DNA from: Merdibacter massiliensis
GTDB lineage: Bacteria; Bacillota_I; Bacilli_A; Erysipelotrichales; Erysipelotrichaceae
Length of the DNA: 64,000 nucleotides
Assembly (NCBI RefSeq): GCF_900155395.1
Contig: NZ_LT699717.1
Location: 124,001 to 188,000, forward strand
Direction: 5' to 3'
Every line of letters begins with the position of its first letter. The first letter of the stretch is position 1. Shown piece after piece: positions 5,742 through 57,379 of the stretch. Below the pieces are notes generated by a model. That model saw only the letters and a list, made by a program, of their open reading frames with translations. It did not search any database and was not told the DNA's origin. Both the position numbers and the translations under genes were made by a program.

Positions 5742-7555
<1,814 letters not shown>

Positions 7556-7570
7556 TCAATGCTGTCCTCA

Positions 7571-8845
7571 CTACACTTCTTGCGCAGCTATATCCCCTTT
7601 TGCTGCTTTTGCGGCTGCTTTTTCGTCTTCTAACTTACATTGTTTGTCATAAACTCTGAAGAATGGATAGTAAATCAATGCTGTTGCTGCGAAGCAAACG
7701 ATATGCAGCAACAAACCACCGATGATGTTACCAGTTGCAAGCGGTGCATAAAGAATGGAAGGCATCGTAACACGGAATGGTTCTACCGGAACTGCAATCA
7801 AACCTAATGCAAAAGTAAACCATACAATCAAACAGTTTGCTAGACCTGCAATCCAGAATGGTACCATCAGTACCGGGTTGAAAGCAACAGGTGCACCATA
7901 AACGACCGGTTCATTGATATTGAAGATCGAAGGTATGATAGCGGCACGGCCAACTGTTTTCAAGCGTTTAGATTTTGCCAAGAAAGCCATGAAACAACAC
8001 AAAGCTAAAGTTGCACCTTGTCCACCGATAAAACACATCTGGAAGATCTCATACGTATGTAAATTTGTTGCTGGTAATCCTTGTGCAACTAATGCCAAGT
8101 TCGCATTTTGCCCTTCCATCCAGATCAAAGACATTAACGGATATAAGATCCATGCCGAAATACCAAAAGAATACATAAACAATACCATTACAACAACTAA
8201 TAAGAAACCACCAAATGATTGTGAGAATGTTGAAATTGGCATGATCAATGCACGGATTGATTCAATAAGATCGAATTTCAGGCCAAAGGTCAAAACAATA
8301 CCAAACAATAGACACAATGTCCAAGGAATAATGGAATTAAACCATGTAACGATGAATGGTGGCAATGAAGTATTATTCTTGAAGAAAGCAAACTTTGCAA
8401 AGATATTGAATACGATTGCAGTAATATAACCAGATACCAAAGCATTCAGCATACCACCAGCACCCAAGTTAGCAGTAGCCAATACTAAATTGCCAGCTTC
8501 ATCATAGTGCGGGAATACTAACAGCAAGAACAAACCTAAACCGGCTAACCCTGCTTGACGGGCAACACGACGTTGTCTTTTCTTTTCCATAATGATACAT
8601 GGCAACTCATAAGCTAAGAACAAGCCAAACAAGCCAAATGAGAAATTACTTAATTCTGTCAAATCCGGCAAGAAGGTTAAGCCAAATCCACGAAATACCC
8701 CAACTAGTGTTGCAACAGAACCAACCAATGTTGCCGGAACAGCTGCCAAAATGGCTTCCTGTGTTGCACCGATCCAGACATTTTGTCCGATTTTTTCAAT
8801 GATAGGCGCAATGCTCTTTTCCACAAAATCCATAAATCTTTTCAT
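7571..8845 (-). CDS. PTS cellobiose-family IIC permease
   Basis: 424 residues, strongly hydrophobic, with about ten membrane segments. It starts MKRFMDFVEKSIAPIIEKIGQN, the usual amphipathic lead of the Lac/cellobiose IIC family. NINEPVVYGAPVAFNPVLMVPF near residue 310 is the conserved substrate-binding NEP motif. It transports and phosphorylates a beta-glucoside together with the adjacent IIA and IIB. The C-terminus is charged and Ala/Lys-rich (EDEKAAAKAAKG). The start has AAGGGAGATATGTT upstream. Confidence 0.95.
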   Translation of the reverse strand: MKRFMDFVEKSIAPIIEKIGQNVWIGATQEAILAAVPATLVGSVATLVGVFRGFGLTFLPDLTELSNFSFGLFGLFLAYELPCIIMEKKRQRRVARQAGLAGLGLFLLLVFPHYDEAGNLVLATANLGAGGMLNALVSGYITAIVFNIFAKFAFFKNNTSLPPFIVTWFNSIIPWTLCLLFGIVLTFGLKFDLIESIRALIMPISTFSQSFGGFLLVVVMVLFMYSFGISAWILYPLMSLIWMEGQNANLALVAQGLPATNLHTYEIFQMCFIGGQGATLALCCFMAFLAKSKRLKTVGRAAIIPSIFNINEPVVYGAPVAFNPVLMVPFWIAGLANCLIVWFTFALGLIAVPVEPFRVTMPSILYAPLATGNIIGGLLLHIVCFAATALIYYPFFRVYDKQCKLEDEKAAAKAAKGDIAAQEV

Positions 8846-8891
8846 AACATATCTCCCTTCTTATTATAAATATCCCTTCTTTATGTTGTAA

Positions 8892-9197
8892 TTATTTCAA
8901 TGATTTCAATGCTTGATCTAACAACCCCTCTCCATTCAATGATCCATAGACTTCGCCATCAATCAATACGACCGGAACATCATATTCTTCCGCAATGTCT
9001 TGGATGGCAGCCAAACGATGTTGAAAATGTGGGCCAACCATGACCAAATCCACTTCATCAAGATAATCTTCGACTTCGGATTCACTGCATGCACGAACAC
9101 TGATGTCCATTCCCCTTTTTTTTGCGGCTGTCATTGCATTATTGGCCATAAAACCACTTGATGCGCCAGAACCGCAGCATAGCAGTACTTTTTTCAT
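8892..9197 (-). CDS. PTS cellobiose-family IIB component
   Basis: 101 residues. The N-terminal strand and P-loop, KVLLCCGSGASSG, carry the phosphocysteine (Cys8 in the C-x-x-G-x-x-S pattern). VDLVMVGPHFQHRLAAIQ is the usual second half of the family. It is the first gene of the operon, with AAAGGAGGAACGTT before its ATG. The promoter lies in the region shared with the divergent regulator. Confidence 0.94.
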   Translation of the reverse strand: MKKVLLCCGSGASSGFMANNAMTAAKKRGMDISVRACSESEVEDYLDEVDLVMVGPHFQHRLAAIQDIAEEYDVPVVLIDGEVYGSLNGEGLLDQALKSLK

Positions 9198-9226
9198 AAC
9201 GTTCCTCCTTTATACTATCTGAGGTC

Positions 9227-9287
9227 ATTATAAAAAGCTTAGATTATTTGATTCAAACCTAAAAAGGTTCCGCAGGTAGGAACTTTT
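9227..9287 (-). promoter_or_regulatory. Promoter and upstream palindrome of the bgl PTS operon
   Basis: On the minus strand, TTGAAT (9251-9256) and TATAAT (9227-9232) are separated by 18 nt. Immediately upstream, AAAAGGTTCC (9262-9271) and GGAACTTTT (9279-9287) form an inverted repeat with a 7-nt centre. Its position behind a weak -35 suits an activator site for the divergent LicR-type protein. Read on the plus strand it could also act as a hairpin. This assignment is inference. Confidence 0.55.
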
Positions 9288-9465
9288 ATTTATTTGATAA
9301 CGAGATTTTAAATTTCTATCATAAAGGAAATTATAAGAAAGATAAAAAATGGGGAAACTGTTAAATATCAGGTTACTGATATAAATAAAAATTCTATGTC
9401 TTTATTTGCTTTCAAGAAAGCTCTAGGAAAGACGATTAAAAGCGCAATGATAATAGGAGGTTAAA

Positions 9466-12850
<3,385 letters not shown>

Positions 12851-43821: not shown

Positions 43822-45036
43822 TTAAAAAAACAATTTATTCCGCCAATGATCGATCATGGAAGAATGATATATTTGATCCAGGCATTCTATATCATGTATA
43901 TTGCATTGTGCAATTTCTTCAATCTGGTTTAAACGATAAAAAAGTGTATTTCGATGCACATGTAATTTCTCAGCAGTTAAAGATATGTTAAGCCCTTGCT
44001 GATAAAACTGCAGACATGTTTGTACCAGTTCCGTATTTTTTCTGCGATCATACTCTTTTAAACGAACATATTCATTGCATATCAGCGTTTTTAATTCTTC
44101 CTGATCATATCTCTGCAGCAATGCGTAGAAAGCATATTTTGAAAACGGAAAAATAGGCTGTCCATGATCAACGATCCTTCCAATTTCTCTGGCTTGCAAA
44201 GCCTGTTTTGCATAAAGACGTAATTTAGATAAATCAAAAAATAAGCGGCTGATTCCACAAGAATACGCGTATTGCACACATATTTTCTCAATTTGATCAA
44301 CCGTTGCCTGGATCTGCTCTTCCCTTGCATAATTACAGACAACCAATATTTGATTCTCCGTAACAAACGCTGTAGTATCTTTGGACAAATCATTGATCAA
44401 ATTGCAGATATAATTCGCATAAGCTTTTCCTTTTTGATCCTGTTCCTTTAAAGACAATACTTTATACATTGGTTGAAATTCCCATTTAAATTGCATGATC
44501 TCATTTTCAATATCTAAATGGTTTTCCAAGGTCATATCTAATAATTCACGATAAAAATACTCTTTCCTTGAATAAGATGGATGCATGCTGCCAACTGTAT
44601 CGGCAAGCAAAACACCAAGCGCATCACATACCATATCTGCACGTTTAGTTTCCTCTTTTGAAAAGACATGCATCACTTGAAAGACGATCAAATAGCCGTA
44701 TACGACCCCTTTATGCATGATCCTTCCTAATATCCGAGGAATCTTTTCTCCTAAATTTGTATTGTATAAAAAGGAAGTTCCATGATGAAATAACTTTTTA
44801 GAAGCATCATCTACTTGAAATGCTTCAATAGACTCTTTCGAACAACAATGATATTGTTTTGCATAATTCCATACTGCATCGTCAAAATCTATTTCATCAT
44901 TCATTGCGATTACGCGAAAATAACGATTAGTGATCATGACCGGATTATGAAAAAATTGTTCTTTCAATGTCGAAACTGTCTTATTGATCGATGATCCTTG
45001 GGTCATCAAGCGAAAAAGGATACCGATATCCTCCAT
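43822..45036 (-). CDS. PucR/CdaR-type transcriptional regulator
   Basis: 404 residues from the ATG at 45036, after GAAGGGAATAGTC; an earlier in-frame start at 45081 would run through the palindrome. A GAF/PAS-like N-terminal part and a degenerate GGDEF-like middle precede the C-terminal helix-turn-helix, LTAEKLHVHRNTLFYRLNQIEEI. It is divergent from the flavin reductase and upstream of the SDR, so both are likely targets. Confidence 0.9.
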   Translation of the reverse strand: MEDIGILFRLMTQGSSINKTVSTLKEQFFHNPVMITNRYFRVIAMNDEIDFDDAVWNYAKQYHCCSKESIEAFQVDDASKKLFHHGTSFLYNTNLGEKIPRILGRIMHKGVVYGYLIVFQVMHVFSKEETKRADMVCDALGVLLADTVGSMHPSYSRKEYFYRELLDMTLENHLDIENEIMQFKWEFQPMYKVLSLKEQDQKGKAYANYICNLINDLSKDTTAFVTENQILVVCNYAREEQIQATVDQIEKICVQYAYSCGISRLFFDLSKLRLYAKQALQAREIGRIVDHGQPIFPFSKYAFYALLQRYDQEELKTLICNEYVRLKEYDRRKNTELVQTCLQFYQQGLNISLTAEKLHVHRNTLFYRLNQIEEIAQCNIHDIECLDQIYHSSMIDHWRNKLFF

Positions 45037-45056
45037 GACTATTCCCTTCTTTCCAT

Positions 45057-45135
45057 GTTGTGCATATTGCACAACCATCATAACATGTTTTTATCTTTTT
45101 TGACATTGTGAATAATTTATCAATTTTATTATAAT
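45057..45135. promoter_or_regulatory. Palindrome and promoter between PucR and the flavoenzyme gene
   Basis: GTTGTGCA-TAT-TGCACAAC (45057-45075) is a perfect 19-bp palindrome about 20 bases before the PucR start. Plus-strand TTGTGA (45106-45111) and TATAAT (45130-45135), 18 nt apart, give a plausible promoter for the flavoenzyme gene. The palindrome is a likely PucR operator. Confidence 0.55.
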
Positions 45136-45167
45136 GTTGGATAGAAAGGATACAAGGAGGTTTATTC

Positions 45168-47099
45168 ATGAAGTACAACAAATTATTTGAACCTGGAAAA
45201 ATAGGTAAACTTACTCTAAAAAACCGTTTTATCGTCGGCGCAATGGGTGTTGGATTTGCTGAATTAGGAGGAACTCCAACTGATCGTACCGTTGCCTATT
45301 ACAAAGCAAGAGCAAAAGGTGGTTTTGCTTTGATCATTACAGAAGTCACTCGTGTACAGGATAGTGAATTCTGCACACCTTACGAACCATCCCTAGGAGA
45401 TGACAAGCATATTCCGGCATGGAAAAAAGTGACCGATGCTGTTCATGCAGAAGGGGCCTATATCTTCCCGCAGCTGCATCAACCTGGAAGACAGTATACA
45501 AAAGCGATTCTAGGGCATGAAGTTTCTGCTCCATCTCCTCTAGCTTGCCCTGTATTTGATGAGACTCCACATGAGTTAACTACAGAAGAAGTCTGGGATA
45601 ATATTCATTTATTTGGCGATGCCGCTCTACGCGCGAAAAAAGCTGGCTTTGATGGTGTAGAAGTACATGCCGGGCATGGATACCTTGTTCAACAATTCTT
45701 ATCTCAATTTACAAATCGACGTTTTGATGAATTTGGCGGTTCACTAGAAAATCGTGCAAGATTTGCTTGTGAGATCTGCAAAGATATCAAACGCAAATGT
45801 GGTGATGATTTCCCAGTAATCATTAAATTGTCAAGTGAAGAAAAAGTACCAGGAGGTTTAACGATTTCGGATACCAAAATCTTCGCCAAGTATTTTGAGG
45901 ATGCCGGCTATGATGCAATTGAAGCTACGATCTGTACCTATGCTTCCCTCGATTGGATGAGTGCGCCTGAAGATGTTCCAATGGGTTTCAATGCTTATAA
46001 TGCAAAACAGATCAAAGAAGGTGTTTCCATTCCAGTGATTTCCATTGACCGAATCAACACGCCAGAAATTGCAGAGGACATCTTAGAAACAGGCAAAGCT
46101 GATTTTGTTTCCATTTCTCGTCAGTCTCTGGCAGAACCTGAATTTCCAAATAAAACAAAAGAAGGAAAAATCTCTGAAATTACTCCATGTATCAATTGTC
46201 TGCAATCCTGCATGGGCTATATGACAGATCCAAATCATTTGCAGGCTTGTTGTTTGGTCAATCCGCGTGTTGGCCATGAAGCAGAATATACTTTTGATCC
46301 TGCACAAACAAGTAAAAATGTTATGATCGTTGGTTCTGGTCCTGCCGGTCTGTATGCAGCATATGTGGCCAGCAAGCGCGGACATCACGTAACCGTTTAT
46401 GAAGCACAGGATAAACTGGGAGGACAATTTAGAATTGCTGCATTGCCTCCTGCTAAATCTTTGTTAACCGGACCTCTTCGTTTCTGGATCCAGGAAGGAA
46501 AGAAAAATGGTGTACAATATGTATTAAACACTGCTGTAACCAAAGAGCTCGTTGAAGAGAAGAAACCAGATGTCGTTATTTTAGCAACAGGTGCAAAACA
46601 GTCCAAACCGCCAATCAAAGGTATTGATATGGAAAATGTATTCATGGCAAATGATGTCATTGAAGGAAAAGTAAAGGTTGGTAGAAATGTTTTGATTGCC
46701 GGTGCTGGATTAGTCGGACTTGAGACAGCTGACTTCTTAAGAGAAAGAGGCGGACGTACCAGTACGATCATCGATATGTTGCCTGCACCAGATTATGGTG
46801 TGCTGGGTGTTGGTACACATTTGCATCAAAGATTGGATTCAAATAATACCCAGTATATCATGGGTGCCAGTATCCAGGAATTCACTCCAGATGGAGTAAA
46901 ATATACACAAAACGGCGAAGAAAAAGAAGCTACTGGATTTGACAGCATCGTTATTGCACTTGGTTCTAAATCTTATAATCCTTTAGAAAAAGAAATCAAA
47001 GATTGTGTGAAGGAAGTATATGTCATCGGTGATGCTTCAAAAGCAGGACAGGCCAACAAAGCAACTGAAGAGGCTGCTGCAGTTGCATTTAAGATCTAA
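45168..47099 (+). CDS. Old-yellow-enzyme-type NADH:flavin/FeS oxidoreductase
   Basis: 643 residues, CAAGGAGGTTTATTC before the ATG. The N-terminal FMN-binding TIM barrel (about 1-330) starts LFEPGKIGKLTLKNRFIVGAMG and has GVEVHAGHGYLVQQFLSQFTNRR. A 4Fe-4S Cys cluster follows near 340-361 (CINCLQSC, then ACC). The C-terminal FAD/NAD(P) domain has VMIVGSGPAGLYAAYVASKRG near 382 and VLIAGAGLVGLETADFL near 505. This is the 2,4-dienoyl-CoA reductase, enoate reductase and bile-acid BaiCD/BaiH architecture. The enone substrate is not known. Confidence 0.94.
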   Translation: MKYNKLFEPGKIGKLTLKNRFIVGAMGVGFAELGGTPTDRTVAYYKARAKGGFALIITEVTRVQDSEFCTPYEPSLGDDKHIPAWKKVTDAVHAEGAYIFPQLHQPGRQYTKAILGHEVSAPSPLACPVFDETPHELTTEEVWDNIHLFGDAALRAKKAGFDGVEVHAGHGYLVQQFLSQFTNRRFDEFGGSLENRARFACEICKDIKRKCGDDFPVIIKLSSEEKVPGGLTISDTKIFAKYFEDAGYDAIEATICTYASLDWMSAPEDVPMGFNAYNAKQIKEGVSIPVISIDRINTPEIAEDILETGKADFVSISRQSLAEPEFPNKTKEGKISEITPCINCLQSCMGYMTDPNHLQACCLVNPRVGHEAEYTFDPAQTSKNVMIVGSGPAGLYAAYVASKRGHHVTVYEAQDKLGGQFRIAALPPAKSLLTGPLRFWIQEGKKNGVQYVLNTAVTKELVEEKKPDVVILATGAKQSKPPIKGIDMENVFMANDVIEGKVKVGRNVLIAGAGLVGLETADFLRERGGRTSTIIDMLPAPDYGVLGVGTHLHQRLDSNNTQYIMGASIQEFTPDGVKYTQNGEEKEATGFDSIVIALGSKSYNPLEKEIKDCVKEVYVIGDASKAGQANKATEEAAAVAFKI

Positions 47100-47169: not shown

Positions 47170-47277
47170 TTCTTGTACATATTCAATCCGTTATATGAGA
47201 GAAATCCCCTAGACGAAGGACTTTTCGTTGCATTAAAATAATAGAAGAGATATATTCGATTGTTTGGAGGTAATCAC

Positions 47278-48051
47278 ATGGAAAAGAAATATTTCTTTTT
47301 TGACATCGACGGAACGTTGACAGATATGAAGACCAAAAAAATTGTTCCTTCTGCTTTAGATACATTGCATAAATTACAAGAAAATGGTCATTTTGTTGCG
47401 ATAGCAACAGGTCGTGCTCACTATAAAGCTCGTGCATTCATGGATGAAGTAGGCTTGCATAATATGGTTGCCAGTGGCGGAGGCGCATTGGTCATCGATG
47501 ATCAATTGGTAGATAATATACCGCTGCCTTTAGAAAAAGCAAAAGCAATCTGTCATCAGGCAGAAGCATTGGGATACGGCCTCTTACTAATGTTAGATGA
47601 TTCTATCCGTGTATACAGCAAGAATGATTTATTTCGAGAGCAGGTCGGTGAACGCAAAGAGCCTACAGAGTATATCATTGATCCAAGTTTAGATTATGAT
47701 ACACTGCCAGCCATTTATAAAGTGTATGTTTCTATTTCACAAGAAGATGAACATCTATTGACGTTAAAAGATACAGTTGGACATCTGCGTTTTGTCAAAG
47801 ATTACTTAATGTTCCAGTATGATAAAAAAGATAAAGGCATCGAACAAATGATGGAGCATCTGCATGCTCCCGTCTCTGATGTGGTTGTTTTCGGAGATGA
47901 TTACAATGACATGATCATGTTTGACCCGCGTTGGACAAGCATTGCAATGGGAAATGCTTGTGATGCGTTAAAAGAAAAAGCCACTTATGTCACAGCCGCA
48001 AATGTTGATGATGGTATTCAAAAAGCATGTCAGCACTTTGGATGGATCTGA
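47278..48051 (+). CDS. Cof-type HAD-superfamily phosphatase
   Basis: 257 residues from the ATG at 47278, after GGAGGTAATCAC. HAD motif I is FFFDIDGTLTD, motif II ATGRAHYK, motif III Lys in KDKGIEQM, and motif IV VVFGDDYNDMIMF. The IIB cap domain separates motifs II and III. It dephosphorylates a small metabolite, most likely a sugar phosphate. The operator upstream resembles that of the dhaKL/PTS operon, so it may belong to that pathway. Confidence 0.93.
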   Translation: MEKKYFFFDIDGTLTDMKTKKIVPSALDTLHKLQENGHFVAIATGRAHYKARAFMDEVGLHNMVASGGGALVIDDQLVDNIPLPLEKAKAICHQAEALGYGLLLMLDDSIRVYSKNDLFREQVGERKEPTEYIIDPSLDYDTLPAIYKVYVSISQEDEHLLTLKDTVGHLRFVKDYLMFQYDKKDKGIEQMMEHLHAPVSDVVVFGDDYNDMIMFDPRWTSIAMGNACDALKEKATYVTAANVDDGIQKACQHFGWI

Positions 48052-48150: not shown

Positions 48151-48792
48151 CTATTCTTTCATAACAGCAAGCATGGCATCCGCCATCGTTGTTAAGATGA
48201 TGCAACAAGAAGTAGCTCCTGCATCCAGATGTCCTTTGCTTCTTTCTCCTAAACGAGCTGCACGGCCAATTTTTGCAACTAGATCTTTTGTATGTTCTTT
48301 TCCAGTTTCTGCTCCCTGTTTCATTGCTTCCAGACATTCTGAAAAACTCTTGCCAGCATCTAATGCTTCTTTAAACTGACGTTGTGCTGGAGCAATCGTA
48401 TCCACTAATGTTTTGTCTCCCTCTTTTGCTCCTGCCAGATCCATCAGACCTTCTTTTGCATTCAGCAAAGCTGTCGCAAATACTTCCGCTGTTATTTGTT
48501 CTTCATTTTTTGTAGAACGGCTCAACTTGGAAAACATCGTCCCATAGATAGGCCCCATGCTTCCTCCTATATCCATGACAAGTGTTCTACCCAAGATTTT
48601 TAAAGCCTCGCTAAAACTAACATTTTCTTCTATGCGGTCTTTTGCCATCATGAACCCTTTGTTCATATTGACACCATGGTCACCATCCCCTGTTGCACCA
48701 TCGATCTCACTTAAATATGCCGCATTTTCATGGATCGCTTCAATGATTTTGATCACAATGCCAGCGTTTCCTTGATTTTCTACATATTGCAT
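48151..48792 (-). CDS. dhaL: DhaL-type dihydroxyacetone kinase ADP/ATP-binding subunit
   Basis: 213 residues from the ATG at 48792, after GGAGGAAAATGAT. DhaL landmarks are SEIDGATGDGDHGVNMNKGF (Mg-binding Asp residues), LVMDIGGSMGPIYGTMF and RSKGHLDAGATSC. The subunit holds the nucleotide and transfers phosphate to a ketose bound in DhaK. It starts one base after the dhaK stop. No DhaM is encoded nearby, so it may use ATP as in tetrulose kinases, or a DhaM elsewhere. Confidence 0.93.
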   Translation of the reverse strand: MQYVENQGNAGIVIKIIEAIHENAAYLSEIDGATGDGDHGVNMNKGFMMAKDRIEENVSFSEALKILGRTLVMDIGGSMGPIYGTMFSKLSRSTKNEEQITAEVFATALLNAKEGLMDLAGAKEGDKTLVDTIAPAQRQFKEALDAGKSFSECLEAMKQGAETGKEHTKDLVAKIGRAARLGERSKGHLDAGATSCCIILTTMADAMLAVMKE

Positions 48793-48793
48793 A

Positions 48794-49804
48794 TCATTTT
48801 CCTCCAAACTGTGTTAGTCCCATCGTTTCTACTTCTTCATCGATGCATTCTTTTAACTCATCATCCAGCTTCATCATCGTCAATGTCACTCCGTTCATCT
48901 CTAATGATGTGAAATAGTTTCCTACATATGACTTATAGATCTTGATTCCTTTTTCATCCAGGATCTTTGCTACTTCTTCAAAGAAGATATATTGTTCCAT
49001 GACTGGTGTTGCGCCTAATCCGGATACCAGTACCACTACTTCATCACCAGCTACAAAAGGCTGATCTTCCACAACCAAACGCGTCATTTCTTCTGCCATT
49101 TCTGCTGCAGTTCCCAGTTTCTCTACCTTGATGCCCGGTTCTCCATGATGCCCGATTCCAAATTCCATCGTTCCATCCTCAATCGTGAAATTTGGTTTTC
49201 CGTTGGCTGGAATAGTACATGGGCTCAATCCTACACCTACGCTGCTCGTATTATCAATTGCTTTCTGTGCTGCTGCGATGACCTCATCCAAGCTAGCTCC
49301 CTGATTGGCCTTCGCTCCGCCTACTTTCCACATCAGGATCTCTCCTGCTACTCCTCTGCGTTTCGCTCTGTCTTCTTTTGGCGCACTTGCGACATCGTCA
49401 TTGGCTACGACTGTCTTTACTTCGATATCGTCATCTTCGGCTAATTCCATCGCCATTTTTACATTCATATTGTCGCCTGCATAATTTCCATATAGGCAAG
49501 CGACTCCCATTCCTTGATCAACTGCACAGAATGCATCATAAAATGCTTTTGCAGTTGGACTGGAGAAAATCTCTCCTACAGCAACGGCATCTACCATATT
49601 TTTACCACAATATCCAATGAATGCCGGTTTATGTCCGCTGCCCCCGCCAGTTACGATTCCTACTTTGCGTTTTTCTTTGGCAAAATTCGACACGACTACT
49701 CGCGGATCATTTTCATCCACATGTATGATATCTTTATGACAGCGTTCAAATCCTTTCAGCATATCTTCTACTACTTCATTTGGATCATTGATGATTCTTT
49801 GCAT
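48794..49804 (-). CDS. dhaK: DhaK-type ketose kinase subunit
   Basis: 336 residues, AAGGAGGTAACATAC before the ATG. GIVTGGGSGHKPAFIGYCG near 50-70 is the DhaK substrate-binding loop. His218 in EFGIGHHGEPG is the residue that forms a hemiaminal bond with the substrate carbonyl. VLVSGLGATPVMEQYI is the other conserved block. Homologues phosphorylate dihydroxyacetone or tetruloses (erythrulose). Its RpiB-like neighbour hints at a four- or five-carbon substrate. Confidence 0.93.
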   Translation of the reverse strand: MQRIINDPNEVVEDMLKGFERCHKDIIHVDENDPRVVVSNFAKEKRKVGIVTGGGSGHKPAFIGYCGKNMVDAVAVGEIFSSPTAKAFYDAFCAVDQGMGVACLYGNYAGDNMNVKMAMELAEDDDIEVKTVVANDDVASAPKEDRAKRRGVAGEILMWKVGGAKANQGASLDEVIAAAQKAIDNTSSVGVGLSPCTIPANGKPNFTIEDGTMEFGIGHHGEPGIKVEKLGTAAEMAEEMTRLVVEDQPFVAGDEVVVLVSGLGATPVMEQYIFFEEVAKILDEKGIKIYKSYVGNYFTSLEMNGVTLTMMKLDDELKECIDEEVETMGLTQFGGK

Positions 49805-49843
49805 GTATGTTACCTCCTTATGATCTTATGCGGGCCTTCTTTT

Positions 49844-50290
49844 TTATCGATACTGTTGATCGATCTCATTGATTCTTTCAACTTTTGCAGTGCTTCCGCC
49901 TCCAGCAAAATCGCATTCCAGCCAATGATCCAGCAGCATCAGTGCATATTGCGGCGCGATGATCCTTGCGCCCATGCACAATACCTGGCAGTCATTGCTC
50001 TTTCTGCTTCTTTCGATGGAGAACAGATCATGTCCAACTGCTGCACGGATGCCCGGCATCTTATTGGCAGTAATAGCCATTCCGATTCCTGTACCGCACA
50101 TCAAGACACCTTTCTCACAACGTTTTTCGATGATCTCCTTGCATAATTTTTCTGCAGTATCCGGATACAATGATGGATCTGTATTATACACGCCCACATC
50201 TGTTACATCATACCCTTTTTCTATCAAATGCTGTTTTACCATTTCTTTTAACTGGAAAGCAGCTTCATCACAACCTACTACGATTTTCAT
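49844..50290 (-). CDS. RpiB/LacAB-family sugar phosphate isomerase
   Basis: 148 residues. The start VVGCDEAAFQLKE replaces the usual GSDHAG with GCDEAA. The catalytic Cys is in VLMCGTGIGMAITANKMPGIRAA (near 66). VLCMGARIIAP is the third block. Members isomerise ribose 5-phosphate, galactose 6-phosphate or, in tetritol pathways, erythrulose 4-phosphate. It directly precedes dhaK. AGAAAGGACAATAGTAT precedes the ATG. Confidence 0.92.
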   Translation of the reverse strand: MKIVVGCDEAAFQLKEMVKQHLIEKGYDVTDVGVYNTDPSLYPDTAEKLCKEIIEKRCEKGVLMCGTGIGMAITANKMPGIRAAVGHDLFSIERSRKSNDCQVLCMGARIIAPQYALMLLDHWLECDFAGGGSTAKVERINEIDQQYR

Positions 50291-50316
50291 ATACTATTGT
50301 CCTTTCTTCCCCATAG

Positions 50317-50338
50317 AAAAGAGCGGTTTTCACCGCTC
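50317..50338 (-). terminator. Weak intra-operon hairpin
   Basis: GAGCGG and CCGCTC (50321-50326, 50333-50338) pair with a 6-nt loop and T4 on the minus strand. It lies between the bicupin and RpiB genes and could attenuate the distal genes. Confidence 0.55.
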
Positions 50339-50362
50339 CTTCACCTCGGATCTGGTGAATTT

Positions 50363-51277
50363 TTAAAGCTCAGTAATTGCAAATACAAGTTTTACTGGTT
50401 TTGCTTCAAAATTTACCAACTGATAAGATACACCAGCTGGAATGAAGAATGTATCTTCAGGCTCTAAAATAAAGCTTTCCTCTAGCTCTGGCAAATTCAC
50501 AGTTACAGGTCCATCTACACAGTACAATGCTGCATCCCCTTTATGTTTGTCCGGATCTGAACAGCGAGGTCCATAACCGCCAGCCGGTAAAATGAACTCA
50601 CCGAAATGTCCATAATCATTGCTTGTAATGAAACGCATTAACATTGGATGTTTGGTACCATGTACGTTGTTTAACTTCTCAAAATCACGTACAGCATAAA
50701 CAGCACCTGTTGCTCTCGCTTCACTTGCATCAACTGGCCAATGTCCGATATCATCTGTGCATCCCTGACGAGAAATATCTTTGATCTTATCTCTCATATT
50801 AGGCAATTTATCATTATTTGGTCCTTTATAGAATTTCGTCTCTTCATCCGTTGGGATTACAGCAGGCGGAATTTGCTCGCTCCATGCTTTTGGTGTGATG
50901 AAATATAAAATACGTGTTTTTTTATCAGAGAAGTTATGGCAGCAATGCCATGCTCCTTCCGGCATGAACAATCCTTCACCTGTCTCTAAGTATGCGAATT
51001 GACCATTTCCAGAACGTTGAACTACCGGTCCTTGCAAAATATAATAAGATTCATCACCTGGGTGAATGTCCAGCGGTGCAAACACACCTCCTGGTCCTAA
51101 TTCATAGATACCTAACATAAAAGTATCAGTTGTTACGATTGTAAATGTATTATCAGATGTAAATGCATTGTTCGGCGGATATAAAGCAGTTGAATAATCC
51201 TGCTTGCGAATCAATGTTGGTTTTTTCTCATCTGGAGAAAATGGGAACTTTCCCATGATGTCAAATAATTTTGCCAT
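50363..51277 (-). CDS. Bicupin protein of unknown function
   Basis: 304 residues from the ATG at 51277, after GAAAGGAGTTTATCTA. Cupin 1 has DIHPGDESYYILQG (His and Glu ligands) and EGAWHCCHNF (His) at about 75-130. Cupin 2, about 220-300, has PAGGYGPRCSDPDKHKGDA and PAGVSYQLVNF, with fewer ligands. It resembles sugar isomerase and dioxygenase-like bicupins. Its place inside a sugar operon suggests an isomerase or epimerase. No reaction can be assigned. Confidence 0.8.
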   Translation of the reverse strand: MAKLFDIMGKFPFSPDEKKPTLIRKQDYSTALYPPNNAFTSDNTFTIVTTDTFMLGIYELGPGGVFAPLDIHPGDESYYILQGPVVQRSGNGQFAYLETGEGLFMPEGAWHCCHNFSDKKTRILYFITPKAWSEQIPPAVIPTDEETKFYKGPNNDKLPNMRDKIKDISRQGCTDDIGHWPVDASEARATGAVYAVRDFEKLNNVHGTKHPMLMRFITSNDYGHFGEFILPAGGYGPRCSDPDKHKGDAALYCVDGPVTVNLPELEESFILEPEDTFFIPAGVSYQLVNFEAKPVKLVFAITEL

Positions 51278-51315
51278 TAGATAAACTCCTTTCGTTGACC
51301 TATTTATACTTTTAT

Positions 51316-51351
51316 ATCTCATACATCTGCTCTATGACAGATGTATGAGAT
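51316..51351. other. Perfect 14-bp intercistronic hairpin
   Basis: ATCTCATACATCTG and CAGATGTATGAGAT are exact inverted arms around an 8-nt loop. No T run follows on the minus strand, so it is not a terminator. It sits in the 112-nt gap between the IIC and bicupin genes and probably serves mRNA processing or stability. Confidence 0.8.
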
Positions 51352-51389
51352 CATCGTATTTCATTTCTAATATGAATCAAATTTAGTAA

Positions 51390-52430
51390 TTAGTCTTCTT
51401 CTTCCACTGCATCTTTCTTCAATGCGATCAAGATAACAGCTGTTACGATTGCACCAACTACGGAAGCAATGATGAAGCTGATAGGACTATTCATTGCGAA
51501 GAGAACGAACAGACCACCATGAGGTGCTTGAATTGTCAAGCCCATCAGATAAGATAATGTACATCCTACTGCAGAACCTGCCATCAATGAAGGGATAACC
51601 TTAATTGGATCAGATGCAGCAAATGGAATAGCGAACTCTGTGATCATACCAACTGCACCGGCAAACAAACCAGCCAATGAACCACGTTCAGCACTTGTGA
51701 AACGGCTCTTTTTGATCAAGATAGCTAAAGCAATTCCCAGTGGAGGTGTAATGGATCCAACAAAGTTTGCACCCATTACCATGTAGTTGCCAGTATCCAT
51801 TGCGGCCAATGCAAATGCATATGCAACTTTATTACAAGGACCACCCATATCAAATGCAAGCATGCAACCTTGAATAATACCAAGCAATACTAAGTTACCA
51901 GTACCTAAACTGTTCAACATATCTGTCAAAGCAGTTGTAACTGCTGCGATTGGTCCACCAATGACATACACCATGATCAGACCCATAGCAGCAACGCCTA
52001 ACAATGGAATGATCAATGTAGGCAGCAATGAACGAAGAGATGCCGGCATAGGAATCTTTTTCAATAAAACTACTAAGTAACCAGCAATGATACCACCAAT
52101 CAAACCGCCAAGGAAACCAGAAGCCTGATTCAATTCCCAAGGGTCAGTAGCCATCCAGCCTGCGATCATACCTGGAGCAATACCTGGCTTATCCGCAATG
52201 CTGTATGCTGTATACGCACCAAGAATTGGAACCATCAATCCAAATGCAGCTTTACCTAACCAGAATACAGTTGAAGCAAAATTGCCTCCCATTGCCACAT
52301 CGTTTGGAATATTATAACCACCTAGCAAGAAACCGATTGCAACTAACAAACCACCTGAGATTACGAATGGAAGCATATATGAAACGCCAGTCAATAACGC
52401 TTCCTGTATTTCTTTTAACTTATCTTTCAT
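51390..52430 (-). CDS. PTS fructose-family IIC permease
   Basis: 346 residues, AGAGAGGAAAAAAAG before the ATG. The family start KEIQEALLTGVSYMLPFVISGG is present, with about eight to ten membrane segments. GPCNKVAYAFALAAMDTGNY near 200-225 matches the conserved substrate region, and APHGGLFVLFAMNSPI lies near the end. IIA, IIB and IIC are separate here, as in many Firmicute Fru-type systems. The sugar is not known. Confidence 0.94.
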   Translation of the reverse strand: MKDKLKEIQEALLTGVSYMLPFVISGGLLVAIGFLLGGYNIPNDVAMGGNFASTVFWLGKAAFGLMVPILGAYTAYSIADKPGIAPGMIAGWMATDPWELNQASGFLGGLIGGIIAGYLVVLLKKIPMPASLRSLLPTLIIPLLGVAAMGLIMVYVIGGPIAAVTTALTDMLNSLGTGNLVLLGIIQGCMLAFDMGGPCNKVAYAFALAAMDTGNYMVMGANFVGSITPPLGIALAILIKKSRFTSAERGSLAGLFAGAVGMITEFAIPFAASDPIKVIPSLMAGSAVGCTLSYLMGLTIQAPHGGLFVLFAMNSPISFIIASVVGAIVTAVILIALKKDAVEEED

Positions 52431-52468
52431 CTTTTTTTCCTCTCTTCTTTATTATTATTCGATTATGA

Positions 52469-52762
52469 TTATTCGAAGATGATGTCTGGATTTTTGATTA
52501 CATCATGTGGAGAGAATTTTTTAATTTTATCTTTGCAAGAATTGAAGCGCTCTGCTTTAGAAACCCCTACATCGTTTGCAAAAACAATGATATCTGCAGA
52601 TTCAATATCTTTTGTTTTCAGCTGATTTTCAATGCCTAGAGCACCTTGTGTTTCAACTTTGCATTCATATCCTTTTTTCTTACATACTTTTTTAATGGCT
52701 TCCGCAGCCATATAAGTGTGCGCAATACCTGTTGCACACGAAGTAACAGCAACTACTTTCAT
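52469..52762 (-). CDS. PTS fructose-family IIB component
   Basis: 97 residues. MKVVAVTSCATGIAHTYMAAE carries the phospho-Cys9 in the CxTGxAHT motif. IIVFANDVGVSKAERF is the conserved mid-region. TTAGAGGTGAACAT precedes the ATG. It lies between IIC and IIA. Confidence 0.95.
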   Translation of the reverse strand: MKVVAVTSCATGIAHTYMAAEAIKKVCKKKGYECKVETQGALGIENQLKTKDIESADIIVFANDVGVSKAERFNSCKDKIKKFSPHDVIKNPDIIFE

Positions 52763-52777
52763 ATGTTCACCTCTAAT

Positions 52778-53254
52778 TTATTCTTCACTGCATGTCTTTA
52801 CGAGCTCCATCAGCTCTTCATAATTATGGACATCATCCAAATGGTCAACAAACTCTTCCTTTGCCAACAGTCCTGCCAATGTTGCTAACACACGCATGTA
52901 CTGTTCCCCGCTTTGACTACCTGGAATTGCAAGCATGAATACATATTTTACTTCCCCAGTTTCACCGCAGCTTTGATAGGTGAAAGGTTCTTTGCATCTG
53001 CAAAAACCGATACCGCTTGAAATTACTTCATTGCATCTTCCATGCGGAAGACCAATATAATTTCCCATGTACGTTGGTCCCATTTCTTCTCTTTCTTCCA
53101 ATGCCTGAATATAAGCCTTTTGATCAGTGATGATACCAGCATCCAGGAACTTTTTGCTCATAAAATCAAACATCTCTTCTTTTGAGGCAAACGGTTCATG
53201 ATCTAATGTAACTGCCTCTTTTGTAAGGACCTTGCTCAGATCAATTTCTGTCAT
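52778..53254 (-). CDS. PTS fructose-family IIA component
   Basis: 158 residues from the ATG at 53254, preceded by AAGGGGATTTCGCCT; the upstream in-frame ATG at 53278 overlaps the aldolase stop. His71 in NYIGLPHGR is the phosphorylated residue. The following strand region is typical (KYVFMLAIPGSQSGEQYMRVLATLAGLL). It receives phosphate from HPr. Confidence 0.94.
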   Translation of the reverse strand: MTEIDLSKVLTKEAVTLDHEPFASKEEMFDFMSKKFLDAGIITDQKAYIQALEEREEMGPTYMGNYIGLPHGRCNEVISSGIGFCRCKEPFTYQSCGETGEVKYVFMLAIPGSQSGEQYMRVLATLAGLLAKEEFVDHLDDVHNYEELMELVKTCSEE

Positions 53255-53277
53255 AGGCGAAATCCCCTTTTCTATCA

Positions 53278-54162
53278 TTAGTACTTACAAGTTTTACCAT
53301 TTTTAAACATGCGTAAAACATCTTTTGCATATTCTTTCATGAAACGATATGCTTCTTCATCTACTTCATGCCAGAAACCATTTCCTTTGATTTCATTCAG
53401 GTATTCTTGCATATGTTTTGTACAAGCTTTTGCCATGTAAGAATAATAATTTACTTTTGAGCAACCTGCAGTAATAGCTGCCTGTACTTGTTTTTCGTCT
53501 ACACCGCTTCCGCCATGCATTACCACGCGTGTTGTAGCAGGCATTGCCGCACGAATTGCTTTTACACGATCGATGTCAAGGATAGGAGGTTCTGCATAAA
53601 TACCATGTGCCGTACCGAAGCAAACAGCCAAAGCATCTACGCCAGTAATTTCTGCAAATTCTGCTGCCTGAGCTGGATCAGTGAATGTTTTCTTGATTGT
53701 TTCATGCGTCCATCCACCTCCATCGCCATGTGTATCATCTTCAGTTGAAGTCATGATTCCTAACTCTGCTTCCACTGTGATTCCTAAAGCATGTGCCATC
53801 TTAGTGAATTCTTTCAACTTTGCTGCATTTTCTTCAAAAGGCAGTGCACTCAAATCATACATGATGGAACTGAATCCGCAACGCAAAGCACGCATTACAA
53901 AGTTGTAATCACTTCCATGATCCAGATGAACACAAACAGGAACTTTTGCTTGTTTTGCATATTCCACCATTTTTGGACCAATCAATTCGATTGGAATCAA
54001 TGGATCATGCACCTGCGCATGGTCAATGATCACTGGAGTCTGCATTTCTTCAGCTGCATCAACAACGGCACGCAATGTTGCCATATTTGGTGTGTTGATA
54101 CATCCGATTGCATAACCTCCTTCTTCTGCATTTTTCAAGATCTCTTTTAAATTAACTAACAT
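53278..54162 (-). CDS. Class II fructose-bisphosphate/tagatose-type aldolase
   Basis: 294 residues, GGAGGATAATAAAAG before the ATG. The Zn ligands are VCVHLDHGSD (His), the GTAHGIY His and VVMHGGSG (His). The catalytic Asp of HLDHG and a YDLSALPFEEN loop are present. The family splits ketose bisphosphates or ketose phosphates into dihydroxyacetone phosphate and an aldehyde. With DhaKL and an RpiB-like isomerase nearby, the substrate is probably a product of the imported sugar. Confidence 0.94.
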   Translation of the reverse strand: MLVNLKEILKNAEEGGYAIGCINTPNMATLRAVVDAAEEMQTPVIIDHAQVHDPLIPIELIGPKMVEYAKQAKVPVCVHLDHGSDYNFVMRALRCGFSSIMYDLSALPFEENAAKLKEFTKMAHALGITVEAELGIMTSTEDDTHGDGGGWTHETIKKTFTDPAQAAEFAEITGVDALAVCFGTAHGIYAEPPILDIDRVKAIRAAMPATTRVVMHGGSGVDEKQVQAAITAGCSKVNYYSYMAKACTKHMQEYLNEIKGNGFWHEVDEEAYRFMKEYAKDVLRMFKNGKTCKY

Positions 54163-54188
54163 CTTTTATTATCCTCCTTCCTGATCGA

Positions 54189-55055
54189 TCAGTCTTCGAT
54201 CGATTCTGCAATTTTTTTAAGGTTTGCTAAACCTTGAATTGCCAATTCCTCTCCTGTATCTGCGAACTTTCTCCAAATTGCACAGTTACCATTCAGCTCT
54301 TCAAAGCTTGGATCAAATGATTCAATTACACATGGCCCATCATATTTGATCTTCTTTAGAGCTAAGAAAAATTCACGGAATGGAACCATTCCTGTACCTG
54401 GGATTCCCCTATCATTTTCATTTACATGCACATATCCCAAATACTTCTTGCCACACGTTTCTACCGCTTTTGTAAAGCTCTTTTCCTCACGGATCATATG
54501 GAAGCAGTCCAAATGAACAGCCATATTTCCTGTTCCCACATCTTTGCAATACTGAACTGCATCTTCCGCGATGTTTAAGAAATGTGTTTCAAACCGGTTG
54601 ACACACTCCACACAGATCTTTAAATCTGGGCAGACCTTCAAAGCATATTCTGCGACTTCCCGCATTGCTTCTACGCTGCGTTTCCATTCTTCCTTCGTTC
54701 GAGGTTTTCCTGTTAAACAACCCCATCCAGCATAATTGACTCCACCAAGAATCTTGCTTCCAAGTTCTTTATTGATATCTACTAACAATTTCAGTGAGTC
54801 AATACCAGCACGCCGAATAGATTCATCTGGCGAAAGAAGATTTCGTTCTGCATCCAGCGTTGTCGTTGTTACTGGAGTTAGATGTGTCTTGCTTAATTCT
54901 TCTTTGACTTTTTCTAATGGAAATGTCTCAGGATGTGCAATAGCAAAATCGATTGCTTCAAATCCCAGCTCTTCTGCTTTTTGAATTACCCATAGATCTT
55001 TCTCTAAGAAGTTTTCTGTCCAGATAAAAGTATCTACGCCGAATTTGATTTTCAT
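54189..55055 (-). CDS. Xylose-isomerase-like TIM-barrel sugar (phosphate) isomerase/epimerase
   Basis: 288 residues, AAAGGAGGGTTAGA before the ATG. It begins MKIKFGVDTFIWTENF. AP_endonuclase_2-type metal ligands are CVECVNRFETHFLN (Glu, His), VHLDCFHMIREE (Asp, His), GYVHVNENDRG (His) and CVIESFDP (Glu), all in the usual order. Members isomerise or epimerise ketoses, or convert tetrulose phosphates. It is the first gene of the operon, so it probably acts early. Confidence 0.91.
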   Translation of the reverse strand: MKIKFGVDTFIWTENFLEKDLWVIQKAEELGFEAIDFAIAHPETFPLEKVKEELSKTHLTPVTTTTLDAERNLLSPDESIRRAGIDSLKLLVDINKELGSKILGGVNYAGWGCLTGKPRTKEEWKRSVEAMREVAEYALKVCPDLKICVECVNRFETHFLNIAEDAVQYCKDVGTGNMAVHLDCFHMIREEKSFTKAVETCGKKYLGYVHVNENDRGIPGTGMVPFREFFLALKKIKYDGPCVIESFDPSFEELNGNCAIWRKFADTGEELAIQGLANLKKIAESIED

Positions 55056-55125: not shown

Positions 55126-55286
55126 ACTATAATTTTCGTTTTTGCACGCATACACGTGCAATAAGCTCGTGCAAAAGACACTTTTCTAACATGCCGCTCT
55201 CGATCTTTTTTTTGCAAAAACTGCAGATCTGCATTCTTTACACCTCGTTCTTTTTTAAAAAATAAATTGCACGAATGCTCGTGCAA
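55126..55286. promoter_or_regulatory. Operator cluster between the PTS operon and its PRD regulator
   Basis: TTGCACG-CATACA-CGTGCAA (55142-55161) and TTGCACGA-ATGC-TCGTGCAA (55267-55286) are near-identical palindromes, and an extra half-site TCGTGCAA lies at 55167-55174. On the minus strand a -10 TATAGT (55126-55131) has its -35 position inside the first palindrome. One box serves each divergent gene. A third copy is before the HAD gene at 47149. Confidence 0.75.
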
Positions 55287-55322: not shown

Positions 55323-55418
55323 ATGCTTTATACTAAAAAAGTAGCATTTGTTTTCTATATTATTTTTATATATAATATTTTTAAAAGACTGTATATGATC
55401 ATAGAACAGCTGAGGTGA
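55323..55418 (+). CDS. Candidate leader peptide, 31 residues
   Basis: ATG at 55323 follows TTAGGAGGAAACTGCAGAT, a strong ribosome site. The peptide begins MLYTKKVAFVFYIIFIYNIF and ends with a basic/amphipathic tail. One hydrophobic segment is present. Its stop lies five bases before the PRD regulator start. It may be a real small protein or a translational leader. Evidence is limited to the ribosome site and spacing. Confidence 0.4.
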   Translation: MLYTKKVAFVFYIIFIYNIFKRLYMIIEQLR

Positions 55419-55423
55419 ATTAC

Positions 55424-57379
55424 ATGATTGATATTACCACAGAAAAAATTATCTGTGTCCTTTTAAATTACCAGGAACCAATCACTTCTAGCCAAATTGC
55501 AAAAGAAATCGGCATGAGCAGCAGCACTGTGAAACACAATATTCGTTTTGTACGTGAATTTGTCGAGTCCACAGGTGCTTCATTACGCTCCATTCCAGGC
55601 AAAGGTTTTCAGATCATTTGTAATGAAATACAGCATGCTGAACTGGAAAAGCTGTCAAATGATCCAAGGAATCAATCATACTCATTTGATTTTCGTAAAC
55701 ATTATATCTTAAACATCTTGTTCCAACGCAATTCCAATTATACAACTCAAATTTTTGCCGATGACCTAGGAGTCAATCGAACAGTAATTTCAAAAGATCT
55801 AGAGTTGATACGTGACTTTCTCAGTTATTTTGATCTTCATTTGCTGGTGATCAAAAATAGAGGCGTTACATTGCACGGAGATGAGTTCAATAAACGACAG
55901 GCTATCATTTTTGAAAATAATCGAAGTTATGAAGAAACAGAGAAAACCGAAGCTCCAGTTTCTTTGGATATCCGTGTGGATCAGCATTTTTTTCATTACT
56001 TCACACATTTTTACCCCCATCAAGATATTTTGACTATTCAACGCATGCTGCAAACAGCAGAAAGTACCTTGAACTTCAATTACAATGATGTTTCGTTTAC
56101 ACAACTGATCGAATATATCGCATTGACCTTAGAACGGATTGCGACAGGGAACATCATACATGAGCCGAATATCTTAGATAAATGCAGGATCAACAAGGAA
56201 CAGCTGTTAGCTGCTGAAGATTTGATCAATCATGCTCTTCCATCTTATTCCAAACAGTCTATGACACATGAATATCGTTGTCTAGCAGCTCAATTTGCAT
56301 TAAATGGTGCTTATGACCGTGCTTCCAGTACGATTAAATCTGACTATTACGAAGAAATTGCACAGCGTTTTTTGAATAAACTGAATACGATCATCGTCAA
56401 TCAAAAGATCTTGATCAATGAAAGTATCATTACTGATCTTGGGTTGATCTTGCAGAAAAAGAAATTGCAAAAAAGCTATCAGTTGATCAGTGGATCCGTG
56501 TTGATCCAAGATATCAAGAAAAACTTGCCTAGCCTCTACGGCATCATCATGGCAAACAGTCAGCTTTTGGAATCAAAGCTGCATATCAAATTCTCTGAAA
56601 ATGATATCGCCTATATCACGATGCTGATCAGCAATGCCTTGGAAGAGGACCTGATGACTTTCCGTATTGCTCTGATTACGAGAAAAGATTATAATACCTC
56701 TAAATATCTGCAGCATAAAATTGAAAAGAATATCATGTATCTCAATTCTATTCAATTATTTTATTATGATCAAATGGATATCAATCTGGACGATTATGAT
56801 TTGGTTGTTTCCACCGTACAAGCCAAAGAGTTAGACAGAAACAACTGTCTTTTCATCTCTTCCCGTGTGGATGACCAAGATATTAATTTGATCAACAACC
56901 GTCTCAGTCAGATTCAGAAAGTAAAACAAAATATCATCGTTTCCAGTGATCTGTTCCACGAAAATCTCATTTGTTTAGGATTCAATGCACGAAATAAAGA
57001 GGAAGCATTAAATAAAGGAGCACAAATTCTTCAGGAATATGGTGCTGTCAATGAAAATTTCATTGAAAACATCAAAGCAAGAGAATCCATCCTGCCAACT
57101 TCTATCGGCAACGGCGTCAGCATTCCGCATGAATTTAAAAAGAATGTCAATCAAGGTGCGATTTCTATCTTGATCTTGGATCATCCTGTTCATTGGTCAA
57201 AAGAAGATAAAGTAGACATCGTATTTACCATGGCACTGAATTTCGAAACAAATGTGGAAGTAAATAACTTTTTCTCCCGCTTCTATGAATTGATTTCTGA
57301 TGAAGAGGTATTAGATCACTTCCGACATGCACAAACAGCAAAAGAAGTCTTACAGATCTTAAGCGATATTGGATTATAA
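55424..57379 (+). CDS. PRD-containing transcriptional regulator (MtlR/LicR-like)
   Basis: 651 residues from the ATG at 55424, after TGAGGTGAATTAC. Two helix-turn-helix segments (ITSSQIAKEIGMSSSTVKHNI; TTQIFADDLGVNRTVISKDLELI) precede two PRD domains (about 170-390). A IIB-like segment (400-490) and a C-terminal IIA domain (about 500-650) follow, with the His of VSIPHEF. PTS phosphorylation would set its activity. It is divergent from the PTS/aldolase operon and is the likely factor acting on the TGCACG palindromes. Confidence 0.93.
   Translation: MIDITTEKIICVLLNYQEPITSSQIAKEIGMSSSTVKHNIRFVREFVESTGASLRSIPGKGFQIICNEIQHAELEKLSNDPRNQSYSFDFRKHYILNILFQRNSNYTTQIFADDLGVNRTVISKDLELIRDFLSYFDLHLLVIKNRGVTLHGDEFNKRQAIIFENNRSYEETEKTEAPVSLDIRVDQHFFHYFTHFYPHQDILTIQRMLQTAESTLNFNYNDVSFTQLIEYIALTLERIATGNIIHEPNILDKCRINKEQLLAAEDLINHALPSYSKQSMTHEYRCLAAQFALNGAYDRASSTIKSDYYEEIAQRFLNKLNTIIVNQKILINESIITDLGLILQKKKLQKSYQLISGSVLIQDIKKNLPSLYGIIMANSQLLESKLHIKFSENDIAYITMLISNALEEDLMTFRIALITRKDYNTSKYLQHKIEKNIMYLNSIQLFYYDQMDINLDDYDLVVSTVQAKELDRNNCLFISSRVDDQDINLINNRLSQIQKVKQNIIVSSDLFHENLICLGFNARNKEEALNKGAQILQEYGAVNENFIENIKARESILPTSIGNGVSIPHEFKKNVNQGAISILILDHPVHWSKEDKVDIVFTMALNFETNVEVNNFFSRFYELISDEEVLDHFRHAQTAKEVLQILSDIGL

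Follow-up and report, generated by a model that had tools for sequence, protein, structure and literature searches.

A phosphotransferase-aldolase operon with a conserved bicupin in Bacillota, a candidate route for a rare seven-carbon ketose

In the tetritol pathways, a DhaK-type kinase acting together with the isomerases TpiA2/EryH and RpiB/EryI turns erythrulose into erythrose-4-phosphate (PMC5992420, PMC10733421); L-erythrulose-1-phosphate is converted to D-erythrulose-4-phosphate by LerI/EryH, and LerK can give D-erythrulose-4-phosphate directly (PMC10733421). In this work, we characterized an operon of Merdibacter massiliensis (Erysipelotrichaceae) located in a stretch of 64,000 nucleotides (contig NZ_LT699717.1, positions 124,001 to 188,000 of the forward strand; hereafter the window, in whose numbering coordinates are given), in which a kinase and an isomerase of these types are encoded together with a fructose-family phosphotransferase system (PTS), a class II aldolase and a bicupin. 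Our results indicate that this is very probably an operon in which PTS import and an aldolase are combined with the salvage of a small ketose, and the imported sugar, as judged from the encoded proteins, is probably a rare seven-carbon ketose.

The operon runs from 55055 to 48151, with its nine genes tightly spaced on the minus strand. From the promoter side, these are:

54189..55055, minus strand: Epi, a ketose 3-epimerase-type TIM barrel (PF01261), by profile score and structure alignment
53278..54162, minus strand: Ald, a class II aldolase without the C-terminal DPR (6-phosphate) motif (PF01116, 274 bits)
52778..53278, minus strand: PTS IIA, fructose family (PF00359; PHG phosphorylation motif in the translation)
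52469..52762, minus strand: PTS IIB, fructose family (TIGR00829, 98.8 bits against a cut-off of 76.85)
51390..52430, minus strand: PTS IIC, fructose family (TIGR01427, 320 bits against a cut-off of 157.55)
50363..51277, minus strand: bicupin, a proposed aldose-ketose isomerase (two Cupin_2 stretches; start codon set by homologues)
49844..50290, minus strand: RpiB-like isomerase, putatively of the tetrulose-4-phosphate type (active-site changes; groups with EryI-type proteins)
48794..49804, minus strand: DhaK-like ketose-binding kinase subunit (Dak1, 388 bits)
48151..48807, minus strand: DhaL-like nucleotide-binding kinase subunit (Dak2; TIGR02365, 172.8 bits against a cut-off of 138.3)

Nine co-directional genes of these families had been called in the initial annotation, and their families, coordinates and strand were all verified, with strong matches to PF01261, PF01116, PF00359, PF02302, PF02378, PF02502, Dak1 and Dak2 besides the two Cupin_2 stretches. 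The aldolase and IIA genes overlap by 1 base and those of DhaK and DhaL by 14, and the bicupin starts at 51277 (MAKLFDIMG), a start shared with its full-length homologues, rather than at 51322. Eight of the nine proteins are small and soluble, the exception being IIC. A second, canonical RpiB and a canonical aldolase are encoded elsewhere in the same genome, so that the operon RpiB and Ald constitute extra copies. Assignment of the transporter to the fructose family follows from IIB and IIC, both above the NCBIfam cut-offs; IIA scores 96.5 bits, just below its cut-off of 103.5, with a strong match to PF00359. The kinase displays the Dak1 and Dak2 domains of the DhaKL type, its substrate side being a prediction, and its DhaK subunit, the only DhaK of the genome, scores 363 bits against the NCBIfam DhaK equivalog cut-off of 406. 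As the initial annotation had noted, DhaM, the hallmark of a PTS-dependent dihydroxyacetone kinase (DhaKLM), is missing: TIGR02364 gave no match in this 99.85%-complete genome, while control genomes matched, and DhaKL would therefore use ATP.

Using the bicupin as a query against the genomes of 84,980 species, we identified 30 loci at 76-93% identity, in Erysipelotrichaceae, Lachnospiraceae (Anaerostipes, Faecalicatena), Propionispora, Pectinatus, Tetragenococcus solitarius and others. The genome of the window itself appears to group with Erysipelotrichaceae of the Longicatena and Absicoccus type. The cupin is present in all of them by construction of the set, and some of the contigs end early; near it, an aldolase was found in 30/30 loci, PTS genes in 27-28, a DhaK-type kinase in 26, and Epi and RpiB in 19 each. 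Gene order differs between the loci, and the recurrence of the gene set across many Bacillota genera argues against a chance cluster. Conversely, of the 273 genomes that the scan covered in the window's family, exactly the 8 that carry the full-length cupin have Ald at an identity of at least 75%; in a second family, the three genomes with Ald at 64% or above also carry the cupin. One genome (G1011) has neither cupin nor PTS next to its 51% aldolase, whose neighbor is a sugar kinase-like gene, and the link thus does not extend to more distant aldolases. The cupin is also the best conserved protein of the operon (median identity 87%, against 51-73% for the others), and these comparisons point to the aldolase and the bicupin as the conserved core of the 30 loci across Bacillota. 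Variation around this core includes two loci (L037 and L049) in which the enzyme set is reduced to Ald, cupin and DhaKL, and a third (L047) in which an ABC transporter and an FGGY kinase stand in place of the PTS, Ald and the cupin being kept without a local DhaKL. DhaK genes are present elsewhere in the genome of L047, and its layout is in keeping with Ald acting on a ketose phosphate made by the kinase. In the same locus (1742-9988), a 401-aa protein encoded beside Ald and the cupin matched no Pfam or NCBIfam family and faintly resembles mannose-6-phosphate isomerase (E 0.035). HPr and enzyme I of their own are encoded in several loci of the Lachnospiraceae type.

Ald aligns over its full length with class II aldolases and, in comparison with solved structures and 30 homologues, retains HLDHG, GTxHG and HG[GAS]SG, that is, the metal-binding motifs and those of the dihydroxyacetone phosphate (DHAP) site that define the superfamily. 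At its C terminus, the DPR motif characteristic of class II fructose/tagatose-bisphosphate aldolases, which is kept in the genome's own canonical aldolase, is replaced by [Y/W]HE ([Y/W]H in 30/30 rows, followed by Glu in 29). The Arg of the DPR motif binds the 6-phosphate of bisphosphate substrates in class II aldolases, and fructose-family PTS transporters deliver ketose-1-phosphates. Since the DHAP and metal site is kept while the 6-phosphate-binding motif is lost, Ald is probably a ketose-1-phosphate aldolase that yields DHAP and an unphosphorylated aldehyde.

No NCBIfam model matched the bicupin above its cut-off (23.8 at best, against 200), and comparison with known bicupin enzymes (quercetinase, oxalate decarboxylase, ureidoglycine aminohydrolase) gave similarity of fold only, at about 15% identity. 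In an alignment of 29 sequences, D70, H72, E76 and H111 of the N-terminal barrel are invariant and plausibly form a metal site; in the C-terminal barrel, the His of motif 2 is missing. The fold was predicted by AlphaFold with a mean predicted local distance difference test (pLDDT) score of 72, and the model matched quercetinase, salicylate dioxygenase and seed storage proteins (Z of about 18-22, 9-19% identity), which are among many generic bicupin matches at such low identity, and the assignment of a function from the fold was dropped. No L-ribose or D-lyxose isomerase appears among the structure matches listed for the model, which proves nothing, and an oxygenase role is unlikely given that the genera are mostly anaerobic. 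Genome context offers a functional lead: on Rhizobiaceae plasmids, the cupin is represented by two adjacent genes (41-43% identity) that adjoin an RbsABC-type ABC transporter, AraD and a ribulokinase whose score exceeds one curated cut-off, and the cluster contains no gene annotated as a sugar isomerase. Because this pair occupies the place expected for an AraA-type aldose isomerase, the cupin may be an aldose-ketose isomerase and, by analogy, the bicupin would act in that capacity on the aldehyde released by the aldolase.

With regard to related arrangements, on plasmid pRSpC104g of Rhizobium sp. C104 (L055/L068) the cupin-pair cluster lies about 24 kb from a pair of EryH/EryI-type genes encoding a triosephosphate isomerase (TPI) and an RpiB, and matches at similar spacing occur in Rhizobium sp. 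CCGE532 and S. fredii GR64. More distant bicupin homologues also take the form of two adjacent single-cupin genes (L020, 8383-9268; L021, 7795-8672), whose neighbors resemble Gfo/Idh/MocA-like oxidoreductases and aldo/keto reductases and, in L020, an iron-type alcohol dehydrogenase.

The bicupin, or else Epi, might instead act on the phosphorylated sugar before cleavage, for instance in the epimerization of a ketose-1-phosphate for Ald, leaving the aldehyde to other enzymes. The constancy of the Ald-cupin pair would fit adjacent steps whether the partner of Ald acts before or after the cleavage, and L047 combines a transporter, an FGGY kinase, Ald and the cupin with no local DhaKL; however, the DhaK genes found elsewhere in that genome, the rhizobial context, which fits an isomerase of a free aldose, and the fact that Epi-like ketose 3-epimerases are known from free ketoses make such an order of steps unlikely. 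The initial annotation had placed the isomerase and the bicupin ahead of the aldolase. Its view that the aldolase cleaves the PTS sugar is retained, but that order is not: both have the look of free-sugar enzymes, while the PTS delivers a sugar phosphate, and they more likely act after cleavage.

The chief new argument for a tetrulose step, one that favors a four-carbon substrate, comes from the predicted active site of the RpiB-like isomerase. Canonical RpiB opens the furanose ring by means of a His (His99 in E. coli, His102 in M. tuberculosis; PMC3755991), and the phosphate is anchored by His11, Arg137 and Arg141 (PMC4783025). The ring-opening His is replaced by Ser in 20/20 operon RpiBs and is present in the 11 canonical copies examined; most operon RpiBs also display the changes GCDH to GCDE/P and RHxxR to xSxxK. 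In the window protein, Glu stands at His11, G/S/K at R137/H138/R141 and Ser at the His99/His102 position, so that neither the ring-opening His nor the phosphate-binding residues of ribose-5-phosphate isomerase B are conserved. The ring-opening change is common to EryI of Rhizobium leguminosarum and to the RpiB of a Pasteurella DhaKL-TPI-tal-tkt cluster, and in a tree built by a quick method with the trait columns left out, the operon RpiBs cluster with the EryI-type and Pasteurella copies, apart from canonical RpiB, with moderate support (SH-aLRT, a Shimodaira-Hasegawa-like approximate likelihood ratio test, 84-91). Both the grouping and the active site are those of D-erythrulose-4-phosphate isomerases (EryI/DerI). 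Erythrose-4-phosphate cannot form a furanose, and loss of the ring-opening residue is thus expected for a C4 substrate; the window RpiB appears to work like EryI/DerI while falling outside formal membership of NF051858, the corresponding NCBIfam family.

Epi scores 174 bits against the NCBIfam D-psicose 3-epimerase equivalog cut-off of 300; aligned with solved ketose, D-allulose and D-tagatose 3-epimerases (8yeb, 5zfs, 3vni), it keeps VNRFE, HLDxFHM, VHxxEx.R and ESF, the motifs with the metal and substrate residues of the ketose 3-epimerase (DTE/DAE) family. Orthology with EryC was considered and rejected, as no BLAST match at 1e-3 was obtained to Rhizobium EryC or to the Pasteurella TIM protein, which belong to the same Pfam superfamily only. 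A stand-alone Epi homologue (62%; L061, 8582-9442), which in the L029 genome has ABC-transporter and oxidoreductase-like genes as neighbors and no DhaKL, indicates that Epi works in other settings too. Five Lachnospiraceae-type loci (L027-L029, L038 and L051), which are not independent events, have no Epi and carry near the cupin module a second TPI, which in the genomes checked accompanies a canonical one; a fused DhaKL-type kinase is near in all five and RpiB in three (L027, L028 and L038). The L027 paralogue shares 61% identity with the Pasteurella TPI and 44% with the TPI in the EryH position of Rhizobium, so that Epi appears swapped for an EryH-type TPI in these relatives. Epi and the TPI paralogue occur together in none of the 30 loci, and by analogy with the tetritol pathways they could be alternative ways of handling L-erythrulose, since the same stage would be attained by epimerization of free erythrulose at C3.

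Two other substrates were weighed against these findings. In a six-carbon route, a rare ketohexose (e.g., of the L-sorbose type) would be cleaved as its 1-phosphate into DHAP and glyceraldehyde, the cupin would form dihydroxyacetone and DhaKL would convert it into DHAP, with Epi and RpiB acting on side substrates. Such a route needs only the enzymes that L037 and L049 possess, Epi resembles ketohexose 3-epimerases, zinc alcohol dehydrogenases lie near the Anaerostipes loci, and fructose-family PTS proteins usually handle C6 sugars; nevertheless, it leaves unexplained both an RpiB without the ring-opening His and the EryH-type TPI paralogue of five loci, and offers no evident job for Epi once the PTS has phosphorylated the sugar, and we consider it unlikely. 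A triose-only reading of the salvage (glyceraldehyde to dihydroxyacetone) was kept as a rival, and agrees poorly with the active site of RpiB and with a TPI of the EryH type. Import of a C4 compound by the PTS, as part of a tetritol or tetrulose pathway with the aldolase as an accessory, would match the combination of DhaK, RpiB and a TPI-like protein known from tetritol degradation; however, a DHAP-type aldolase present in 30/30 loci would be without a role, the window's operon has no tetritol dehydrogenase, and a tetrulose phosphorylated by the PTS would not need DhaKL, all of which makes this alternative very improbable.

In the seven-carbon scheme that we propose, a ketose, most likely a ketoheptose, would be imported by the fructose-family PTS as its 1-phosphate, and Ald would cleave ketoheptose-1-phosphate into DHAP and an unphosphorylated four-carbon aldose (tetrose), which the bicupin would isomerize to erythrulose. 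Epi would convert L- into D-erythrulose at C3 where needed, DhaKL would phosphorylate D-erythrulose with ATP to D-erythrulose-4-phosphate, and the RpiB-like enzyme would turn the latter into erythrose-4-phosphate, which would enter the pentose phosphate pathway. A C7 ketose-1-phosphate is proposed because DHAP would be released along with a C4 aldehyde. The ketoheptoses common in plants are sedoheptulose and mannoheptulose, the latter reportedly treated for avocado in PMC6606701; either would give D-erythrose, with no need of Epi, so that an L-series tetrose, and another heptulose, may be involved instead. As assembled, we judge the full scheme to fall slightly short of an even chance, and it is more tentative still that it represents an undescribed free-ketoheptose route of gut and fermentative Bacillota, combining PTS-made 1-phosphate, aldol cleavage, a cupin as a new tetrose isomerase and an isomerase of the EryI type to reach erythrose-4-phosphate.

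Several observations weigh against this scheme. Its substrates are assigned from sequence, the seven carbons by carbon counting, and phosphorylation at C1 by family analogy together with the missing DPR. RpiB is absent within +/-10 kb in 11/30 loci (some contigs being cut) and Epi is likewise absent in 11/30, so that neither is obligatory; Epi has no detectable BLAST relation to Rhizobium EryC, and a TPI paralogue of the EryH type is missing from the window organism. Furthermore, the window RpiB scores 144 bits against the NF051858 cut-off of 240, a threshold for D-erythrulose-4-phosphate isomerase that the Rhizobium copy itself narrowly misses (236.8), it lies just over the generic NCBIfam RpiB cut-off, and the ring-opening His is missing as well from LacB, which is a subunit of a hexose-phosphate isomerase.

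Concerning the substrates suggested in the initial annotation, phosphorylation of a small ketose by DhaKL is supported, and the link to tetruloses gains direct sequence evidence from RpiB and the TPI paralogue. The choice between a C3 and a C4 ketose, which had been left open, is now tilted towards C4 by the active site of RpiB and by the TPI of the EryH type. Tetritols, pentitols and apiose as imported substrates become less likely, because the operon has no polyol dehydrogenase and an aldolase that forms DHAP together with a C4 aldehyde calls for a C7 ketose. The D-apiose pathways employ apiose isomerase, apulose kinase or transketolase, and RuBisCO-like enzymes, and none of these is found among the families of the operon genes.

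The operon is flanked by elements that had not been included in the initial annotation of its genes, namely a regulator and a phosphatase, and by two palindromes:

55415..57379, plus strand: divergent regulator with helix-turn-helix, PRD and C-terminal EIIA domains (Pfam HTH_11, Mga, PRD, PTS_EIIA_2)
55267..55286, no strand: operator-like palindrome TTGCACGAATGCTCGTGCAA (from the sequence)
55142..55161, no strand: operator-like imperfect palindrome TTGCACGCATACACGTGCAA (similar palindrome at the same distance upstream of the operon in Longicatena, L022)
47260..48051, plus strand: Cof-type haloacid dehalogenase (HAD) phosphatase, convergent to the operon (TIGR00099, 131 bits against a cut-off of 137)

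Both palindromes have the form TTGCACG-N-CGTGCAA, lie between the operon and the regulator, and are likely candidate operators. A divergent homologue of the regulator is found in Longicatena (61% identity); the palindrome of L022 was not seen in more distant relatives, and no CcpA-type cre consensus occurs within the window. A perfect 14-bp inverted repeat lies between the IIC and cupin genes (51316-51351), in a region that folds at -29 kcal/mol; it is missing in the closest relatives, and L038 has an unrelated long hairpin at that place. Homologues of the HAD phosphatase are found inside the operon or immediately downstream of it in L022 and L044, where they are co-directional with it, and in L038, between the regulator and RpiB, and the differences in orientation suggest a local inversion. 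Phosphatases of the Cof type are those of the window and these three loci, and 13 loci have phosphoglycolate-phosphatase-like ones. As 4-phosphoerythronate is a known toxic by-product of erythrose-4-phosphate, its removal is one guess at their role. Further along, at 43822-47099, a 643-aa protein resembles Old Yellow Enzyme/2,4-dienoyl-CoA reductases and adjoins a divergent regulator of CdaR/PucR-like appearance.

If true, the scheme would name a likely substrate for the gut genera Anaerostipes, Faecalicatena, Longicatena and Absicoccus, give a function to an uncharacterized and very conserved bicupin family, and provide an additional entry to the pentose phosphate pathway that bypasses phosphofructokinase. 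Moreover, Ser in place of the ring-opening His would be a marker that may separate tetrulose-phosphate isomerases from ribose-5-phosphate isomerase B, with which annotation models largely lump them.

No description of the operon was found in the literature searched (enzyme combinations, tetritols, L-glyceraldehyde, heptuloses and Listeria lmo0345-0348), subscription journals lying largely outside the search, nor did these searches return a characterized pathway with a bicupin in such a setting, in agreement with the initial annotation. Individual parts do have described counterparts. Ald has its fold and its metal and DHAP-site motifs in common with the class II ketose-bisphosphate aldolases (FBA, KbaY/GatY) and YdjI; FBA and KbaY/GatY carry DPR for the second phosphate, whereas Ald has [Y/W]HE, and YdjI too is without DPR (FLHLE). 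The rhizobial pair is a cupin homologue at 41-43% identity in a sugar operon without an annotated isomerase, differing in its two genes, pentose-type enzymes and ABC import. The DhaK-DhaL-TIM-RpiB-TRAP-TPI-tal-tkt cluster of Pasteurella multocida (NZ_CP113523) has DhaK, DhaL and RpiB at 39%, 33% and 54% identity to those of the window and the TPI that is 61% identical to the L027 paralogue, but it relies on a TRAP transporter, has no annotated aldolase, PTS or bicupin, and its TIM protein is not detectably Epi-like. With respect to erythritol and threitol degradation in Brucella and Mycobacterium (EryC/EryH/EryI; LerK/LerI/DerI), the operon adds PTS import, a DHAP-type aldolase and the bicupin, its Epi has no detectable BLAST link to EryC, and no tetritol kinase or dehydrogenase is present among its genes, the rest of the genome not having been searched; what it has in common with those routes is the DhaK-type kinase, an RpiB with an EryI-like site, in some loci an EryH-type TPI, and the proposed product, erythrose-4-phosphate.

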